Translations under genes and position numbers: made by a program
In this document: piece by piece, positions 8,120 to 21,929 of the stretch
Layout of the letters: every line of letters starts with the position of its first letter
Position numbering within the stretch: position 1 is the first letter of the stretch
Virus record (IMG/VR): IMGVR_UViG_3300025671_000586
Coordinates: 1-22,544 of that record
From: a virus
Length of the DNA stretch: 22,544 bases
Reading direction: 5' to 3' (one strand)
The notes under the pieces: generated by a model
What the model saw: the letters and a program-made list of their open reading frames with translations, nothing else
Database searches by the model: none
Told to the model about the DNA's origin: nothing

Positions 8120-8277
8120 TGTCTATATGCTTTTTTTAATTCTTGTTGTTCTATTTGTATCTTTTCTTTTTCAAATGCTAAATAATTTAAACACTGATAG
8201 AGTGGAAGCTCGGTAACTTCGTTAAAGTTCCTGACATCTCCTTTAGCGAGTGCATAAATTGATTGATACCAACCCCA
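8116..8277 (-). CDS. -1 frame extension of the tail chaperone (53 codons, no start codon)
   Basis: In the -1 frame after the seven-A run at 8278-8284 the reading continues WGWYQSIYALAKGDVRNFNE and then VTELPLYQCLNYLAFEKEK before stopping with TGA at 8116-8118. The motif KWGWYQSIYALAKGD is one I associate with Bacteroidetes phage tail-chaperone extensions. The frame is open upstream to about 8446 but contains no ATG, GTG or TTG, so it can only be reached by frameshifting. Its TGA overlaps the next gene's ATG as ATGA, the same coupling used elsewhere here. A fused product would have about 262 residues. The slip would re-read A AAA AAT as AAA AAA. An indel error in the A run is the competing explanation. 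Confidence 0.6.
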   Translation of the reverse strand, partial: WGWYQSIYALAKGDVRNFNEVTELPLYQCLNYLAFEKEKIQIEQQELKKAYRQ

Positions 8278-8903
8278 TTTTTTTCCAAATGCGTCTCTAG
8301 CTGTTGCATATCCTCTTTCGTTAGATTGTCCTTCAAATATTTCGGTATAGCTTCCAGTAAGTCCTTCCCTAAATCGTAAAAAAAAACCATTGAACTGATT
8401 GCTACGTCTAATGGCATCTCTTTCATTAACTCTTGTATTTCTTCATTTACTTTGTAAGGTGCAATATCGTATTTATCTTTTGCCTTAAAATTAACTGGTC
8501 TATACAATACAGCCATAGCTTTATGCATCTTTTGCCAATCTGTAATATTAGTTTCAATATCTACATACTCACCAAGAGTTATATCGTCAAGCTTAGGTAT
8601 GAATCCCATATCTACATCTAACAACTTAAATCTTTGTATTAACTTAGGTTTCTCTGCAAATGCCTTATTTAATATTTCTAATATTTTATTGTATTCACTC
8701 AAAGGTATCCTAATAACGTCTCTTAGTGAAACATTACAGAATATTTCTACAAGTTTCATATTTAAGAAATCGTTTATCTTATCTTCATCTTCGGCATCCT
8801 CTGTTTTGTTCTGCTCTATGATCTTCATATACTTTTGGTATTGCCAAAGTTTAATGTCAGATAGAGTTGTTGGTACTTCTAGTTCTATTTGTTTTAGTGC
8901 CAT
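8187..8903 (-). CDS. Tail assembly chaperone-like protein, short form (238 aa)
   Basis: An acidic, alpha-helical protein beginning MALKQIELEVPTTLSDIKLW. It has FIPKLDDITLGEYVDIE (about 101-117) and a KAMAVLYRP motif (about 128-136), followed by MPLDVAISSMVFFYDLGKDL. It precedes the tail genes, as lambda gpG-type tail assembly chaperones do. In that class a -1 frameshift near the end of the gene makes a longer gpGT-like product. Here the sequence GGAAAAAAATGGGG (8273-8286) lies near the end of the frame, and the -1 frame continues into a conserved-looking domain (see the extension entry). The short form ends at 8187 with a Ser/His-rich tail. The chaperone function is inferred from position and the frameshift arrangement, not from a strong sequence match. 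Confidence 0.6.
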   Translation of the reverse strand: MALKQIELEVPTTLSDIKLWQYQKYMKIIEQNKTEDAEDEDKINDFLNMKLVEIFCNVSLRDVIRIPLSEYNKILEILNKAFAEKPKLIQRFKLLDVDMGFIPKLDDITLGEYVDIETNITDWQKMHKAMAVLYRPVNFKAKDKYDIAPYKVNEEIQELMKEMPLDVAISSMVFFYDLGKDLLEAIPKYLKDNLTKEDMQQLETHLEKNGVGINQFMHSLKEMSGTLTKLPSFHSISV

Positions 8904-8947
8904 ATTATAATTAATAATTTTATTAGTTTTTGTACTTTACTTATTGC

Positions 8948-8966
8948 ACCTGAATATATGTCAGGT
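8948..8966. repeat. Short inverted repeat upstream of the tail chaperone gene
   Basis: The arms ACCTGA (8948-8953) and TCAGGT (8961-8966) are perfectly complementary around a 7-nt loop, ATATATG. It lies 45 nt upstream of the chaperone start, between that gene and the 17-bp repeat array. There is no U-run after it on either strand, so it is more likely an operator or a hairpin in the leader than a terminator. Confidence 0.5.
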
Positions 8967-8988: not shown

Positions 8989-9101
8989 TGTTACATACTA
9001 TGTATTACACTATGTATGTATTACATGATGTATATATACACTATGTAATATATTACACTATGCAATATAATACATTATGTAATATAATACACTATGTATA
9101 T
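8989..9101. repeat. Tandem 17-bp near-palindromic repeats (left array)
   Basis: The unit is TATTACACTATGTAATA, with arms TATTACA/TGTAATA around CTA. Four variants abut exactly at 9034-9050, 9051-9067, 9068-9084 and 9085-9101. Two more sit at 9003-9019 and 9019-9035, and a degenerate copy is near 8989. The core ACACTATGTA recurs at 9038, 9055, 9072 and 9089 with a strict 17-bp step. No ORF crosses the array; it fills the gap between the 80-aa gene and the tail chaperone. The same unit occurs at 21566-21626. Head-to-tail palindromic units suggest cooperative binding of a dimeric protein. The role, iteron or operator, is not determinable from sequence. Confidence 0.85.
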
Positions 9102-9123: not shown

Positions 9124-9366
9124 CTATTTGTCGGTTGGGTTATGTTTATAGTAGTAGAACGTATATAACTCTATGATCTTATCACTCCATTGTTTTAATC
9201 CATAAGTATCTGGTGAACGTATAATTTGACTATTGTCATTAACTTCAACATAATATTCTCGTTGGTTCTTTGGCACAGCATATATCTTAATATTGTTGTC
9301 TATACAAAAAGATATGTGCCTAAGATAATTCTTATCGTAAGTTACTAGTTTCTTTTTTTTACCCAT
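9124..9366 (-). CDS. Small basic conserved phage protein (80 aa)
   Basis: The protein starts MGKKKKLVTYDKNYLRHISF, has IKIYAVPKNQREYYVEVNDN in its middle, and ends with a Tyr-rich helix (IIELYTFYYYKHN). I chose the ATG at 9366; an ATG at 9375 (MNLMGKKKK) is equally possible. A longer reading would need a TTG at 9405. It is the first gene after the long leader that opens the left-hand region. I remember similar small proteins from Bacteroidetes phages but know no function. The basic N-terminus would allow nucleic-acid binding; this is inference. Confidence 0.6.
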   Translation of the reverse strand: MGKKKKLVTYDKNYLRHISFCIDNNIKIYAVPKNQREYYVEVNDNSQIIRSPDTYGLKQWSDKIIELYTFYYYKHNPTDK

Positions 9367-9405
9367 TAGATTCATAAAGGTATTGAATTCATAAAGAACA
9401 TACAA

Positions 9406-11358: not shown

Positions 11359-11378
11359 CAAACAAACAAACAAACAAC

Positions 11379-11456
11379 TATTAAATTTATGTATTGAATT
11401 TATATTGAATTCATAGGTATTAAATTTATTCTATTAAATTCATATATTGAATTTAT
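11379..11456. repeat. Six-unit 12-bp repeat array, TATTRAATTYAT
   Basis: Units start at 11379, 11392, 11403, 11418, 11432 and 11445, each fitting TATTRAATTYAT (ATRAATTYAATA on the minus strand), with steps of 11-15 bp. The last unit covers the stop codon of the 172-aa gene (11453-11455). The array stands between that stop and the terminator. Single or degenerate copies occur at 9381-9392 and 12159-12183. This may be a protein-binding array or a tandem duplication of the AT-rich leader motif. Confidence 0.7.
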
Positions 11457-11971
11457 AATCTTTCGCCATCTTTTTTAAATTCATATTCATTAACAATAAT
11501 AGTTTCTTTTATTGCCTCATCACTTAAATAATAATCGTATTCACTATTTAATTGTCTTAATATTTCATTTTGTAAACTGCAATGAAAAACGTCTTCAATA
11601 GCGTTAATTTCATTATCATAATCATTATAAAAATCTTCTTTTATTTTATCCTTTTCGCCATACTTTTTAAATAGATTATTTCTGTCTTTTAAAAACTTCT
11701 TTGTAGCAATATAAATTTGCTCTGTTGTATTAAATCCATAAGACATAATTAAATTTGCAGTTTCCTCATAAGAGCTATAAATTTCGATTTCAATTTCTCT
11801 TCTGTATAAATCAAAACCTTTTATTATAATCTCTACTTGTTTAAATTCCTCGTAAACTAAATCCCACCAATCATGGTGTACATTTATATCATAATGATTT
11901 TTAATAATTTTTTGTTGCGTTTGCTTATCTAATTCATCAAATTGATAAGCTTGAATTTCTATTGTTCTCAT
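11453..11971 (-). CDS. Conserved phage protein of unknown function (172 aa)
   Basis: The N-terminus, YQFDELDKQTQQKIIKNHYD followed by INVHHDWWDLVYEEFK, matches a signature (FDEL...Q..I..H.D.N....WW) that I know from many phage early proteins. Some of these are labelled as toxin-antitoxin stability proteins without evidence. The rest is acidic and helical, with a Cys at FHCSLQNEIL. It has its own promoter at 11995-12025, its own terminator at 11330, and a 12-bp repeat array at its end, so it is probably a monocistronic early gene, expressed strongly. Function not assigned. Confidence 0.65.
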   Translation of the reverse strand: MRTIEIQAYQFDELDKQTQQKIIKNHYDINVHHDWWDLVYEEFKQVEIIIKGFDLYRREIEIEIYSSYEETANLIMSYGFNTTEQIYIATKKFLKDRNNLFKKYGEKDKIKEDFYNDYDNEINAIEDVFHCSLQNEILRQLNSEYDYYLSDEAIKETIIVNEYEFKKDGERL

Positions 11972-12045: not shown

Positions 12046-12213
12046 TTATTTATTACTTTTATTAATTTTGTATTTTCTACATACAAAAAAATAATGCTTT
12101 AATGCTTTTTTTCGTTTAGCTAATTTTCTTTGATTTAAGGGTGTTAAACTCATTACTCTATTAAATTCATATATTGAATTTGGCGATGGCGTGAATATTG
12201 TTTTATCGTCCAT
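12046..12213 (-). CDS. Small basic protein, unknown function (55 aa)
   Basis: The frame begins MDDKTIFTPSPNSIYEFNRV and ends in a Lys/Arg-rich half (LNQRKLAKRKKALKHY). It overlaps the end of the 46-aa frame by 61 nt in another reading frame. The basic C-terminal half could bind nucleic acids. The start has a plausible A-rich context, but the long overlap makes it less certain than its neighbours. No family is recognised. Confidence 0.4.
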   Translation of the reverse strand: MDDKTIFTPSPNSIYEFNRVMSLTPLNQRKLAKRKKALKHYFFVCRKYKINKSNK

Positions 12214-12296: not shown

Positions 12297-13010
12297 TTAA
12301 ATTTCTAATTTATTACTTCTAAGTTTGTAATTATAAACGTCCATTATCTCTTGTATAATATCATATTCATTATTATAAATATAAATCTTTTTAACGCTTT
12401 TACAATTCTTTATTAATCTGTCAACATCAAAGTGTTCGTTCTTAAACATTATCTTTTTTAGTGCCCTAACGAATTTAGTAGATATAGCATTTTTTCCTAT
12501 CACATCTTTTAAACTTAAGCAATTTTCTAAAACCTGTTCGCCTAAATCCTCATTCATTTCATAAATACCTTTTTTAATTAAAGAGGTAGAGCCTTTGTTT
12601 AATTTTGAATTGAAAGCATCTGTAATTCCAGAAAGCGTAAAATCATCAATAAAATCATCAATTATTTCTAATAATCTTTTATATTCCAGATTACCTTTAA
12701 CTGCATAAGATTTGATGTGGTTTATAACTTTCCAACCTCTTTGATTAGTATTTATATCAACAACACAATCTTTATTTACGTTATTATTTATTACATAAAA
12801 TACAGGTTTCTGTAATTGAATTAACGCTTCTAATCTATGTTGACCGTCAATAACGTAATTATCATTAGTTACAATTATCGGCACAACTAAGCCAAATTTA
12901 GTAATTGAATTACAAAGTAAATCAACATGCTTTTTATCTACATCTCTATTAAATGTCAAGTATTTAAACAAGCCATAGTTTTTAGTTTCAAATATCTCAA
13001 ATTTTTTCAT
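12297..13010 (-). CDS. ParB/Srx-domain protein (237 aa)
   Basis: Residues about 15-80 form a ParB N-terminal-like domain: FKYLTFNRDVDKKHVDLLCN, SITKFGLVVPIIV and the diagnostic IDGQHRLEAL (about 54-63). Members of this fold bind CTP in true partition ParB proteins or act as nucleases or modification cofactors in others. Here no HTH of the ParB type and no ParA neighbour is visible. The C-terminal part is helical and Lys-rich (DINTNQRGWKVINHIKSYA, about 85-103). I chose the ATG at 13010 rather than an upstream codon at 13079 because it has the AAAACAATG leader common here and does not run into the previous gene. The role could be DNA binding, partition-like or regulatory. Confidence 0.75.
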   Translation of the reverse strand: MKKFEIFETKNYGLFKYLTFNRDVDKKHVDLLCNSITKFGLVVPIIVTNDNYVIDGQHRLEALIQLQKPVFYVINNNVNKDCVVDINTNQRGWKVINHIKSYAVKGNLEYKRLLEIIDDFIDDFTLSGITDAFNSKLNKGSTSLIKKGIYEMNEDLGEQVLENCLSLKDVIGKNAISTKFVRALKKIMFKNEHFDVDRLIKNCKSVKKIYIYNNEYDIIQEIMDVYNYKLRSNKLEI

Positions 13011-13026
13011 TGTTTTCTGTTTTAAT

Positions 13027-13197
13027 TTATACTTTACTTTCTTTATATTCTTGTTCTTGTTGTTGCATATACAATTCAACAGTGGCTTGCAGTGTTCGAT
13101 TCATATCTTTAAGCTTTATTATTTCAGCTTTAAATATTTGATTCATTTCTCTTAAGTGTTTAATCTCTATTCTGTTTAAATCTTCTAAATGTGTCAT
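13027..13197 (-). CDS. Small coiled-coil protein, unknown (56 aa)
   Basis: The sequence MTHLEDLNRIEIKHLREMNQ, followed by IFKAEIIKLKDMNRTLQATV, is a continuous amphipathic helix with heptad-like Leu/Ile/Met spacing, ending in a Gln-rich stretch (YMQQQEQEYKESKV). It probably oligomerises. It starts 5 nt after the stop of the 63-aa gene and ends 17 nt before the ParB-like ATG. Function unknown. Confidence 0.55.
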   Translation of the reverse strand: MTHLEDLNRIEIKHLREMNQIFKAEIIKLKDMNRTLQATVELYMQQQEQEYKESKV

Positions 13198-16050: not shown

Positions 16051-16376
16051 AAACCTTTATTAATTAATTGGCATATAATAGAGTAATTACCTAAGTCTTG
16101 AAATGTATCTAACAGAGTTTCGTTGTTTCCCTTACGATTCTTAATAATTAGATTTTTCCATCTACTTATTTTATCGTTCATTCTAAACCATAAACCATGT
16201 AAAGCAAACTCTTTGCCTTCCTTAGTTTCTAGGTTTGCACCAGTACTTATATTACTAATGCCATAATCTAATTGCTTCTTTGCAAACAGTTCAAACTGCT
16301 CTTCAACAATATCCTCATAACTCTTATAAAGATTAGGTGCTTCCTTTTGTAATAGTTTTCTATACTTGTTTTTCAT
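16038..16376 (-). CDS. Nmad1/DUF1599-like protein (112 aa)
   Basis: The core FELFAKKQLDYGISNIS, EFALHGLWFRMNDKISRWKN and ETLLDTFQDLGNYSIICQLI resembles the nucleotide-modification-associated domain 1 (DUF1599). That domain is often found next to thymidylate synthase or base-modification genes and has a MazG-like helical fold. The conserved acidic residues in YG..N and D-K-I and the D-DLGNY motif (about 90-98) could bind metal or nucleotide. It overlaps the DnaA-like gene (17 nt) and terS (13 nt). No modification enzyme is visible in the window. A role in nucleotide metabolism is inference. Confidence 0.7.
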   Translation of the reverse strand: MKNKYRKLLQKEAPNLYKSYEDIVEEQFELFAKKQLDYGISNISTGANLETKEGKEFALHGLWFRMNDKISRWKNLIIKNRKGNNETLLDTFQDLGNYSIICQLINKGLWKE

Positions 16377-16773
16377 ATTCTAATTCTGGCATATTACTTA
16401 TTACCATTGTTAATTCATCTATATCTACACTTCTAAGTGTTTTTAATTTGCTTTTGATATATTCCTTTTTGCTTGCATTATCCATTTCATCTATTCTTAT
16501 AATAACTTGTTTAAGCCATATTTCCAATACATCATTATATTTTTTATGTAGCTTAAATGTATTAATAGAATATATTAAAGTAGCGTGATTTATGTCCCAA
16601 CCGTTTTGACTGTAAAACCTAACTATTTTGTGTAAAGGCATCTTTTTATATTTATATAATATAAAGTTAAGCAATGACCTTGCCTCAACATATTCTCTTT
16701 TTCTAGTAACTTTTAAAACATCAAGTCCAGATAATATTGAAATTTTATCTGCTATTTGCTTTGGTGTAATCAT
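16360..16773 (-). CDS. DnaA domain IV-like DNA-binding protein (137 aa)
   Basis: Residues about 1-75 resemble DnaA domain IV, the DnaA-box binding helix-turn-helix: MITPKQIADKISILSGLDVL, then KVTRKREYVEARSLLNFILY, then WDINHATLIYSI (in DnaA the last element is the DHSTVIHS-like signature). There is no AAA+ domain, so it is not a full initiator. Upstream codons would give a longer frame from 16833, but the ATG at 16773 overlaps the previous TGA as ATGA. Proteins of this type are seen in Bacteroidetes phages and probably recognise DNA sites or interfere with host DnaA. The C-terminal half is helical and unassigned. Confidence 0.7.
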   Translation of the reverse strand: MITPKQIADKISILSGLDVLKVTRKREYVEARSLLNFILYKYKKMPLHKIVRFYSQNGWDINHATLIYSINTFKLHKKYNDVLEIWLKQVIIRIDEMDNASKKEYIKSKLKTLRSVDIDELTMVISNMPELEYEKQV

Positions 16774-16961
16774 GGTAAATAATTTTGTTGAGCTTTGTAA
16801 TCCTCTAAAGCGTGTAGTATTGCACCACAACATTCATAGTGCTCTTCAAATTCATATTGCTCGATTAATATAGGTATTTCGTTTTCTGTTATTACTCTTT
16901 TTTTTAGACATAATAGAGTGTCTTCATAACAATCTAAGTAATCTAAATATTCATTGTCCAT
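16770..16961 (-). CDS. Small acidic protein, unknown (63 aa)
   Basis: The sequence MDNEYLDYLDCYEDTLLCLK and EEHYECCGAILHAL is rich in Glu, Tyr and Cys (five Cys) and helical. Its ATG comes immediately after the exonuclease stop with no gap, and its TGA overlaps the DnaA-like ATG. It is probably co-expressed with both. The charge suggests a protein partner rather than DNA. No family is recognised. Confidence 0.6.
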   Translation of the reverse strand: MDNEYLDYLDCYEDTLLCLKKRVITENEIPILIEQYEFEEHYECCGAILHALEDYKAQQNYLP

Positions 16962-18655: not shown

Positions 18656-19052
18656 TTTTATATTCTTTATAAACTCGTTCTAGTTTTTTATGTAGGTTGT
18701 TTTTAAAACAAGAGGAACAACTAGTAAGGCTCATTTTTTGATGAAATATTCTATTATATATTCTAAGCAATTTTTGTTGCGTTTGTGGATGTACAGTAGA
18801 CTTTGCCTCTGTAAAATACTTGTCTAAATATTCATATTCCTCTTCTGTTAAACACTCTGGTTTATAATAAGGGAATAAATAATTTAATTTAGCTTTACGC
18901 TCTTCGCATCCACAATCTTCACCAAGTACCCATTTAGCTACTTTGGATATTCCTGTTTTTTCAAGTACCTTTTCGACTGTGTCCCCAAGTCCTCTAGCCT
19001 TTGTACTTTCTGTACTCTTCTTTGCTTTCTTTTCTAATTTTTTCTTTGGCAT
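18648..19052 (-). CDS. Conserved Cys-rich phage protein, GEDCGCEERK type (134 aa)
   Basis: A very Lys-rich start (MPKKKLEKKAKKSTESTKAR) is followed by GLGDTVEKVLEKTGISKVAK and GEDCGCEERKAKLNYLFPY (C47 and C49), and later LTSCSSCFKN (C112 and C115). I recognise this two-part pattern as common in Bacteroidetes phages but without known function. The two Cys pairs could make a zinc site. It overlaps the sigma-like gene by 59 nt in another frame. The basic N-terminus suggests contact with nucleic acid. Confidence 0.7.
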   Translation of the reverse strand: MPKKKLEKKAKKSTESTKARGLGDTVEKVLEKTGISKVAKWVLGEDCGCEERKAKLNYLFPYYKPECLTEEEYEYLDKYFTEAKSTVHPQTQQKLLRIYNRIFHQKMSLTSCSSCFKNNLHKKLERVYKEYKSE

Positions 19053-19554
19053 TTGTTAATGTATTAAATATTGAACTTAAACTTATTTTTGTCTCTTTAC
19101 TAATGTCTCGCATACTCATATCCGTATTTAGATATAACTTAGTTAGCTTCTTATCGTACCAATACCACTCTTCAATTATTTCGTCTATTTTGTCATACAA
19201 CGCTTCTAAGTTAATCTTTTTTTCATAACTTTCTGTTTGCTCCTCAAAATCATAAAAATTTTTATTATTAAAAGTGCCTTTATAATCTGACAATAGTATT
19301 ATTTTTTTATTGTTATTATTATAATTAGTAAACTTACTATAATATAAATTTCTTAATGTAATGTATATATAAAATGTATTTATTTCGTTTTCATTATACA
19401 TAATTCTCTTTACGTCTTTTGTATAATCGTGCATCCTTATATACATTTCTTGTACTAACTCGTTTGCCTTGTCTTCATTTATTCTAAATCCTTTAGCCAT
19501 CTTAATCCAGTCCGTATGCCTTTTAGCTAATATGTCAAGTATCTTAGAGTTCAT
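18994..19554 (-). CDS. Sigma-70-like factor (186 aa)
   Basis: The protein has a two-part layout like small ECF-type sigma factors. A region 2-like helix pair (HTDWIKMAKGFRINEDKANE, then LVQEMYIRMHDYTKDV, about 13-48) is followed by a variable Asn-rich linker. A region 4-like helix-turn-helix closes it (TKLYLNTDMSMRDISKETKI, then SLSSIFNTLTNAKEKIRK). Small sigma-like proteins of this form are known from Bacteroidetes phages. It would redirect host RNA polymerase to phage promoters, perhaps the late ones. It overlaps both neighbours (11 and 59 nt). Promoter recognition is inference. Confidence 0.75.
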   Translation of the reverse strand: MNSKILDILAKRHTDWIKMAKGFRINEDKANELVQEMYIRMHDYTKDVKRIMYNENEINTFYIYITLRNLYYSKFTNYNNNNKKIILLSDYKGTFNNKNFYDFEEQTESYEKKINLEALYDKIDEIIEEWYWYDKKLTKLYLNTDMSMRDISKETKISLSSIFNTLTNAKEKIRKESKEEYRKYKG

Positions 19555-19834
19555 CTTTGAATATTATATCTCTAAGTTTATTAAACGAGTTCACAACATA
19601 ATAGTTACCTTGCCATTCTGCTTGAAACTTTATTTCGTCTGGTGTAAGCTTTTGTTGTGCTAATGGTTTGTCACCATCTTTAATTTCTATAAGATAATTG
19701 TTACCTGCATAACCAACTATAATATCTGGTGCACCTTTGCCTAATTGATGAGTATGGAGGACAGAGCATCCTATCTCTCTAAGTTGTGAGACAATCTTTT
19801 TTTGGTTAGCATCTACTCTAGCTCGTTTTCGCAT
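19544..19834 (-). CDS. VRR-NUC domain nuclease (96 aa)
   Basis: The whole protein is a single VRR-NUC fold: an N-terminal helix (QKKIVSQLREIGCSVLHTHQ), then GKGAPDIIVGYAGNNYLIEI-K (P36-D37 and E50-I-K52, the nuclease core), and LTPDEIKFQAEWQGNYYVV with the typical helix after it. Stand-alone VRR-NUC proteins in phages cut branched or single-stranded DNA intermediates. It overlaps the primase-helicase by 22 nt and is likely co-translated with it. Confidence 0.88.
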   Translation of the reverse strand: MRKRARVDANQKKIVSQLREIGCSVLHTHQLGKGAPDIIVGYAGNNYLIEIKDGDKPLAQQKLTPDEIKFQAEWQGNYYVVNSFNKLRDIIFKDEL

Positions 19835-21540
19835 CTGATATTATCAACTTCATCAAAGGGCGTTTGATTGTTAAAATAATATCTGTTTGATTTCCTATGA
19901 TATGTTATACCCTCTATATCTTGAGGATAACCTACCAATTTTTGTTTCTTTATTTTCTGACTGCCAAATGTAACTTGTGTATTACTAAAATCTAAAGCTC
20001 TATTTGGTCTCCATACAAAAAGTACATTATCACTTTTATCTGCAAAAGTACCACCACCTTTTATTGAATTAACATCTGGTTTTCTATACCTTCCGTTGTC
20101 ATCTTTTTGTGGTGTAACTTGGTGTGCAACTAAATGAACTGATATTTTATTCTCTACGGCAAACCTTTTTAGCTCACTCATAAATCTACTTATGTATAAA
20201 TCTTCTCTTTCACCTCTTTGCATCCTGTGTTGTACAGTATTGTATGGGTCAATAATCAATGAACGTATTCCTTTTGTCTTAACTAAAAACTTAGCTCTTT
20301 CAAATATGTCTTCTAATTTATAACTTTTTTTTGGATATATAATAAAAAAATGTTTTTTCATAAACTCCATGCCTTGTTTAAACTCCTTTTCACTCATATA
20401 ATTATTTTGATAAAAAGGGTCTGAACTTTTACCAATGTAACATTCTATTAAGTCATGGAAAAAATCATTTATTGGCATATTCTCTGGACTAAATACTGCA
20501 AACTTCCATCCATCGTGAAATGCCTTTAAAACTGATAATTGATTTAAAAACATACTTTTTCCTTCGTTTTGATAACCAGTCCAAATGTTTACTTCTCCAT
20601 TCCTCCAAGTCCATGCCCTATCTATGCAATCTATGTGAGTAGTAGAACCTCTTTCTTGTCCGTTCTTATAACCATCTAACATACTATCATAAATATCCTC
20701 AACACTAAATATACCCTCTACTTTTGGCACTCTAGCGTGTTTAAATCTATGTTGTAAAGATTTTATACCTTCATTAAGTAAAACTTCATTAGCATCTTTA
20801 TATGGGTTTGTGTCTATTAATCTTATTTTTTCAGCACCAATCCTTCTTATGAGTTCCTCTTCTAAGTACCTGCCGTTTTCATCATTGTCAGTACACAAAT
20901 AAACCACCTTTGCATTGTCAAACACTTCATAAGAATTTGTTATACATTCTAATTTCTTATCTAAGTTTTTGTCTCTGGCATTAGGAGCTCCCATATTTAC
21001 AGACGTATGCCAAGTAAAACCTGCTACCTCCCAACTTAATGAATCAAATTCACCTTCACATAATATAACAAAGTCTTGATTTACTACCCTGTCATAGTTA
21101 AATATTATAGGTTGACCATTTCTTGATTGTGTAAACGTTTTATTATCTATGCCTCTAGTTTTGTAATTAACAAGCTCATTGTTTTTAAGATAGGGAAATA
21201 CAACGCTTTTGCCATCTTTAGTAGTAGTAATCTTATTGTTTTCAATAACCTCATTTGTTATACCTCTACTATTAAGAAACTTAATGGCACTTGAATTTAT
21301 TTTCTTTAGGTTGTTTGTAGTGGGTTTAGTATATATTTTTTGTTCTATCATATTGTTGTTAGGGTTTACAGAACCGTTCCAACCACAATGGTGGCAGTGA
21401 TATAAGCCATCATCTAGGTTAATAGACAGTGATGTATCACTTTTATTTTTCCTAGTATGACTACATTTTGGGCATTTTACCTTCTGTTGAGAGTATTTGC
21501 CTTTAGGTACGATTCCAATTTTTCTAAAGTTTTCTTGCAT
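19813..21540 (-). CDS. Primase-helicase, zinc ribbon + Toprim + RecA-like helicase (575 aa)
   Basis: This resembles T7 gp4/Twinkle-type replicative primase-helicases. The N-terminal zinc ribbon has CPKC (23-26) and CHHC (49-52). The Toprim part shows CEGEFD (161-166) and TDNDENG (217-223), followed by DTNPYKDANEVL. The helicase has Walker A GYQNEGKS (322-329), a Walker B strand ending SLIIDPYN (D431), and VAHQ (H473). This order points to both primer synthesis and 5'-3' unwinding at the fork, though primase activity is inferred. The only gap in front of it (21541-21623) contains the 17-bp repeats that recur upstream of the tail genes. It overlaps the VRR-NUC gene. Confidence 0.92.
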   Translation of the reverse strand: MQENFRKIGIVPKGKYSQQKVKCPKCSHTRKNKSDTSLSINLDDGLYHCHHCGWNGSVNPNNNMIEQKIYTKPTTNNLKKINSSAIKFLNSRGITNEVIENNKITTTKDGKSVVFPYLKNNELVNYKTRGIDNKTFTQSRNGQPIIFNYDRVVNQDFVILCEGEFDSLSWEVAGFTWHTSVNMGAPNARDKNLDKKLECITNSYEVFDNAKVVYLCTDNDENGRYLEEELIRRIGAEKIRLIDTNPYKDANEVLLNEGIKSLQHRFKHARVPKVEGIFSVEDIYDSMLDGYKNGQERGSTTHIDCIDRAWTWRNGEVNIWTGYQNEGKSMFLNQLSVLKAFHDGWKFAVFSPENMPINDFFHDLIECYIGKSSDPFYQNNYMSEKEFKQGMEFMKKHFFIIYPKKSYKLEDIFERAKFLVKTKGIRSLIIDPYNTVQHRMQRGEREDLYISRFMSELKRFAVENKISVHLVAHQVTPQKDDNGRYRKPDVNSIKGGGTFADKSDNVLFVWRPNRALDFSNTQVTFGSQKIKKQKLVGYPQDIEGITYHRKSNRYYFNNQTPFDEVDNIRCENELE

Positions 21541-21565: not shown

Positions 21566-21626
21566 TATTACACTATGTAATATATTACACTATGTAATAT
21601 TTATTTATATATTACACTATGTATTA
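21566..21626. repeat. Tandem 17-bp near-palindromic repeats (right array)
   Basis: Two perfect copies of TATTACACTATGTAATA abut at 21566-21582 and 21583-21599, and a third, TATTACACTATGTATTA, lies at 21610-21626. They occupy the gap between the winged-helix gene and the primase-helicase, and the third copy covers the winged-helix stop codon. The shared 17-bp step with the left array (8989-9101) excludes simple AT-rich low complexity. Confidence 0.85.
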
Positions 21627-21929
21627 CATACAACTGACATTCTTGGCATCTGGACTAACGTAAATCTTACGCTCTTTGCCGTCATTTCCTAAGCTTTTTG
21701 TTATCCTGTTTATGTATTTCTTGTTTTCTAAGCTTTTAAGTATTCTATAAAGAGTTCTATCGTTTAAGTTTAATGCCATACAAATACTTTCGTTTGAGGC
21801 ATAACAATAACCTCTTTGTATTGACAATGAATCTATATAAGATAATACCGTAGCTTCTGATATTGATAAGTTTGTGTTCATAAATGCTAAATTAATGTTA
21901 ACGTATTTTGTGTTTTTTCTTTGTGTCAT
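21624..21929 (-). CDS. Winged-helix DNA-binding protein (101 aa)
   Basis: Residues about 22-80 form a winged helix-turn-helix: LSISEATVLSYIDSLS, then YASNESICMALNLNDRTLYR with ILKSLENKKYINRIT (recognition helix and start of wing) and GNDGKERKIYVS (wing). This resembles the helix-turn-helix domains of phage and plasmid replication initiators and DnaD-like proteins. I chose the ATG at 21929; the longer frame from 21965 begins with TTG inside the upstream hairpin. The 17-bp repeats start within its stop codon, so it is the prime candidate to bind them. That link is inference. Confidence 0.75.
   Translation of the reverse strand: MTQRKNTKYVNINLAFMNTNLSISEATVLSYIDSLSIQRGYCYASNESICMALNLNDRTLYRILKSLENKKYINRITKSLGNDGKERKIYVSPDAKNVSCM

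Follow-up and report, generated by a model that had tools for sequence, protein, structure and literature searches.

Two distant arrays of one variable palindromic unit in uncultured phages, and an HTH_36 protein as their candidate reader

Bacillus phage SPP1 carries two origins, oriL and oriR, which lie 12-13 kb apart, share similar repeats and AT-rich DNA, and are both bound by the phage protein gp38 (G38P) (PMC3485210, PMC6316719). The SPP1 oriR occupies a long intergenic stretch among the late genes, and gp38 bound at this site has been proposed to halt the replication fork and to initiate the synthesis of concatemers (PMC3485210, PMC6316719). Plasmid initiators of the RepA_N/HTH_36 kind, such as those of pSK41 and pPR9, likewise bind origin repeats through a winged helix; in the pPR9 Rep a helix-turn-helix of pfam13730 (HTH_36) replaces the RepA_N domain, and the replicon works (PMC5703833). 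The plasmid Reps have a C-terminal domain that contacts the DnaG primase, and the rep gene itself contains their Rep boxes (PMC5703833); a second, distant array is undescribed there, whereas the phage studied here has two. MarR/PadR regulators also share a small winged-helix fold and palindromic sites before operons.

We analyzed an IMG/VR virus record of 22,544 b (hereafter the window), which is a linear fragment with almost all of its genes on the minus strand and probably belongs to a phage of marine Flavobacteria, a host assignment drawn solely from its nearest cultured relatives, Nonlabens phage P12024L (by terminase) and Tenacibaculum phage JQ (by primase). An alignment scan of genome contigs with the primase-helicase, for a host or prophage, returned no close relative and only one match (21%). 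The left array (8991..9101, minus strand) comprises seven 17-bp imperfect-palindrome units with the consensus TATTACATAGTGTAATA and the palindrome core TACATAGTGTA. Scored on the gene (minus) strand as matches out of 17 to TATTACATAGTGTAATA, four units abut exactly (9085-9101, 13/17; 9068-9084, 15/17; 9051-9067, 16/17; 9034-9050, 14/17), and three more follow (9019-9035, 12/17; 9003-9019, 14/17; 8991-9007, 12/17). A reading of the sequence alone had counted at least six units, four of them abutting; with seven, the array runs to 8991. A small uncharacterized gene of 93 aa (9124..9405, minus) lies directly upstream, and downstream is the gene of an uncharacterized 238-aa protein (8187..8903, minus). 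The sequence-only reading had called this neighbor a tail chaperone: it does open the structural gene block, which has a head maturation protease-like protein at its far end, but the label is unconfirmed and the protein belongs to phrog_32199.

The right array (21566..21626, minus) has three units, two of them perfect and abutting (21566-21582 and 21583-21599, both 17/17) and one at 16/17 (21610-21626). It lies between the start of a primase-helicase with Toprim and DnaB_C domains (19813..21540, minus), the first gene downstream, and the gene of a 101-aa HTH_36 winged-helix protein (21624..21929, minus, or extending to 21965 in a longer ORF with a TTG start); the array overlaps the stop codon of the HTH_36 gene. 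The distance from the array end to the primase ATG is about 15-40 bp. The replication module additionally encodes an Erf annealing protein and an exonuclease VIII-like protein. The same unit is thus arrayed at two places 12.5 kb apart, as had been noticed before, and the window holds no further array: allowing at most 3 mismatches on both strands, we found 10 matches, every one inside the two arrays (expected 0.53; maximum 3 among 100 shuffles), and the isolated 13/17 matches elsewhere (17610, 13405 and 5051) are at chance level. The left gap is richer in AT than the window (82% and 71%, respectively). Its array is nevertheless more than AT-richness, because it contains five non-overlapping units of at least 13/17 and none of 2000 simulations with the gap's own dinucleotides reached five. 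A single-stranded DNA hairpin was sought in the left array, and folding was no better than in shuffles (z = -0.92).

We retrieved 55-80 IMG/VR loci each for the HTH_36 protein, the primase-helicase and the 238-aa protein. The gap between the HTH_36 and primase genes carries an array in the window's clade and in relatives, and so does the gap before the 238-aa gene in relatives, the most distant group excepted. Arrays occur at both places in all 17 related contigs in which both sites are readable, 10-15 kb apart within genomes of about 34-36 kb, four of these being circular distances that assume a circle closed at the ends of incomplete contigs. In 17/17 genomes, both arrays rank among the six 100-bp stretches that melt most easily. 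Since the window is the entire virus record and a linear fragment, the full-genome count of the 17-mer that had been proposed was drawn from relatives, and it gives two arrays per genome with no third in the available sequence. None of the cultured relatives was found to carry the array, P12024L and JQ being without comparable ones. The left region of one contig, 3300046167_000393 (37,967 b; loci L091 and L092), is present at both contig ends, which suggests that this genome, of about 36 kb, is circular or terminally redundant.

The unit varies from phage to phage, AGTAACTGTATA being one of its forms. The window's clade carries TACATAGTGTA, 3300009104_000116 carries TACATAGAGTA/TACATAAAGTA, 3300026085_000008 TACACTTAGTGTA, 3300037961_001129 TACAATGTA, 3300048121_000536 TACATGTTATA, 3300025138_000152 AGTAACTGTATATA and 3300021373_000838 ATAACTATATA; units are weak in the low-complexity genomes 116_234 and 30389_1299. 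If one protein reads both arrays, the two arrays of a genome are expected to carry one unit, whatever the unit of other genomes. We measured left-right similarity by 7-mers, omitting AT-only words, in 14 representatives, and a genome's own pair was more similar (mean 0.42) than crossed pairs (0.13; permutation P = 5e-5). The own right array ranked top in 9/14, and three of the other five ranked it second behind phages with the same unit; concordance was weak in the low-complexity genomes 116_234 and 6752_2826. Scanning 100-bp windows in 17/17 contigs (leaving aside the duplicate of the left region close to the opposite end of 3300046167_000393), we found that the best match of either array is its partner, the next place scoring far lower. 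The own right array also beats the 30 most AT-rich other windows in 15/17 genomes; the two failures arose because trimming of the right region had removed the array, and both genomes pass the 100-bp scan.

The comparison of related phages thus bears out the suggestion that one factor serves both places: the paired arrays share a unit that varies between genomes and changes jointly at the two sites, so that, as far as sequence comparison can tell, one factor with two sites is well supported. Random scatter of the unit through AT-rich intergenic DNA, the outcome that was to count against this suggestion, is not what these genomes hold, given that stray matches stay at chance level and that the second-best place in relatives is always the partner array. 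The left units had also been described as more diverged than the right ones, with a difference in affinity or age as a possible reason. Most members of the window's clade show this divergence, 3300009104_000116 and 3300030108_001522 show the opposite, and the affinity or age idea does not generalize.

Judged from sequence, the strongest candidate for a reader of both arrays is the HTH_36 protein, whose gene adjoins the right one. The distance between units (one genome's left array against the other's right) was correlated with HTH_36 distance (r = 0.82) more strongly than with the distances of six other proteins (r = 0.54-0.78) in Mantel-type tests on 20 related genomes, a kind of test that can be biased; HTH_36 is also short and fast-evolving. 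With each of the other proteins controlled for singly, the HTH_36 correlation remained significant (partial r = 0.42-0.74, P <= 0.0025), and with all of them controlled for together it fell to a partial r of only 0.27 (P = 0.024); none of the six others was significant given HTH_36. The HTH_36 protein was found in 10/10 array-bearing records tested. In one further record (G019) and in P12024L, a homologue of the left gene is kept and both HTH_36 and the array are absent; JQ keeps a primase-helicase homologue and has neither HTH_36 nor a comparable array. Two other potential readers, ParB-like and DnaA-like proteins, were rejected as too rare, with 2/23 and 7/23 array-bearing genomes encoding them, respectively. 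The ParB-like protein of the window (12297-13079) has counterparts in few relatives, and its nearest cultured matches are in Streptococcus phages; a 157-aa protein (16360-16833) weakly resembles DnaA domain IV (Pfam 0.0097, NCBIfam 6.5e-4) and is without the ATPase part.

Sequence families and a structural model suggest that the HTH_36 protein is of the replication-initiator type. It matches HTH_36 (PF13730) in Pfam at 4e-10 (39.8 bits against a curated cut-off of 25) and phrog_428/270, replication initiation proteins, and 20/20 homologues match such PHROG families. Its AlphaFold model (mean pLDDT 86.6) is nearest in the PDB to 4pql, 5kbj and 4pt7, which we take to be DNA-binding domains of RepA_N-type plasmid initiators, the closest solved fold; the PDB titles of these nearest folds speak of an "N-terminal domain of DNA binding protein", a "Rep-DNA complex" and an "initiator". 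MarR/PadR regulators are nearly as close in fold, MarR ranking just behind these three entries. However, the sequence families and the neighborhood of the phage protein indicate replication, and each phage genome has its sites at two places only, in arrays of 3-7 units. With a length of 101 aa in the window and 73-119 aa in relatives, the protein consists of a DNA-binding domain alone and, judged by this length, lacks a C-terminal domain for recruiting helicase or primase. Both this lack and the closeness to MarR/PadR folds count against an initiator.

A promoter-like element, CAGNTG-N12-14-TACA (here CAGGTG...TACA, approximately 8930..8952, minus), separates the left array from the structural genes. 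It stands 45-50 nt before the ATG in 16/23 diverse left sites (null mean 0.09) and is rare elsewhere in the genomes. It resembles a late promoter, perhaps for a phage ECF-sigma-like protein. Such a protein, a candidate late sigma factor, is encoded at 18994-19554 of the window, with weak NCBIfam matches (~1e-6), and is present in 23/23 array-bearing genomes. A TGNCA dyad half often precedes the element (in the window and in relatives, loci L064-L136), and ahead of the right array the 3' end of the HTH_36 gene holds TGNCA-like dyads too. No Flavobacteria-type TAnnTTTG promoter was found at either array in the window. Elsewhere, at 12023-11995 and 11228-11199 (minus), TGTCAGTTGGAA...TA(TG/TA)TTTG precedes small genes and resembles the Flavobacteria -7 box (TAnnTTTG); the two elements have the upstream word TGTCAGTTGG in common, with a spacer of just 12-13 nt. 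A 27-nt repeat, CTATTAAATTTATGTATTGAATTTATA, has three copies (11378-11404, 11431-11457 and 12158-12184) and is unrelated to the 17-bp unit.

The layout bears a striking resemblance to that of SPP1 in having two distant AT-rich arrays and, as proposed here, one phage DNA-binding protein; the replication region holds one array, next to the candidate initiator gene, and an intergenic gap of the late region holds the other. The spacing, 12.5 kb in the window and within the range given above for the 17 contigs, compares with the 12-13 kb of SPP1, and AT-rich, easily melted DNA is present at both arrays. The differences are that SPP1 oriL lies inside gene 38, whereas the right array follows the HTH_36 gene and overlaps its stop codon only; that the HTH_36 protein, unlike gp38, is a single small domain; and that no separate helicase loader was identified in the phage, its helicase being fused to the primase. 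We propose, with moderate confidence, that an initiator-type HTH_36 protein has two sites, the left one also placed to influence late transcription. A dimer of the protein would read each palindromic unit and coat the array. The right array, AT-rich and directly before the primase-helicase, would most likely serve the replication module as its origin or control region. The left array would be a second, distant site of the same protein, by analogy with SPP1 oriR and gp38, and might act as a second origin or a fork barrier. As it adjoins the conserved promoter-like element just downstream, it may in addition couple late (structural) transcription to replication; its place upstream of that element suits a role in transcription at least as well as an origin.

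That position also suits an HTH_36 protein that is purely a regulator with no origin, an early-to-late switch in which the right array represses or roadblocks the primase-helicase operon and the left one activates or holds back the structural operon. Such a switch is a serious possibility, short of an even chance. Both arrays stand at the starts of gene blocks, the promoter-like element precedes the first structural gene downstream of the left array, and the protein consists of a winged helix alone, with fold matches of the MarR/PadR kind. The genome 3300025138_000152 adds to this: its HTH_36 gene is apart from the primase gene, and the array remains before the primase, in a divergent intergenic gap. 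(Genes for ssDNA-binding-like and ERF-annealing-like proteins are inverted between HTH_36 and primase there; L214, 241-1520.) On the other hand, the homologues all score best against replication-initiation families and the best PDB folds are initiator domains, the short distance from the right array to the primase ATG leaves little promoter room downstream, and neither array in the window has a TAnnTTTG promoter. We favor the HTH_36 initiator with two sites over the pure switch because of the SPP1-like layout, the easy melting and the arrangement in 3300025138_000152.

Centromere-like partition sites or packaging (pac) sites for a ParB-like, DnaA-like or terminase protein are improbable: the window does encode the ParB-like and DnaA-domain-IV-like proteins, but both are infrequent among array-bearing genomes, and the change in unit follows TerL distance no more closely than HTH_36 distance. 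Very improbable, in our view, is that the arrays have no common reader and owe their likeness to recombination or copying within the genome (concerted evolution). Words of up to 22 nt, longer than one unit, are common to both arrays in several genomes; however, long shared words are expected from abutting units, the two arrays differ in details of unit and spacing, both internally and from each other, and copying leaves unexplained both the two fixed places in 17/17 contigs and the joint loss with HTH_36. The gaps are 82-86% AT, and arrays could in principle be a chance product of such intergenic DNA, a probability that is close to nil and is refuted by the simulations, by the expected number of matches and by conservation in dozens of relatives.

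On the reading of an HTH_36 initiator with two sites, the analysis would place a probable replication origin and, coupled to it, a second control site on the genomes of many uncultured phages. This large group probably infects marine Flavobacteria, and we found no cis-acting elements described for it. It is possible, if on balance doubtful, that a lone winged helix lacking a helicase-loading domain is both an origin-binding initiator and a switch for structural genes, its arrays re-specified together, with at least six specificities in one environmental phage family. The six or more unit types with their matching HTH_36 sequences form a natural series of proteins and sites for decoding how this widespread kind of winged helix recognizes DNA. 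If the left site works, replication would be linked directly to particle building, via fork stalling as proposed for SPP1 or via control of the late promoter.
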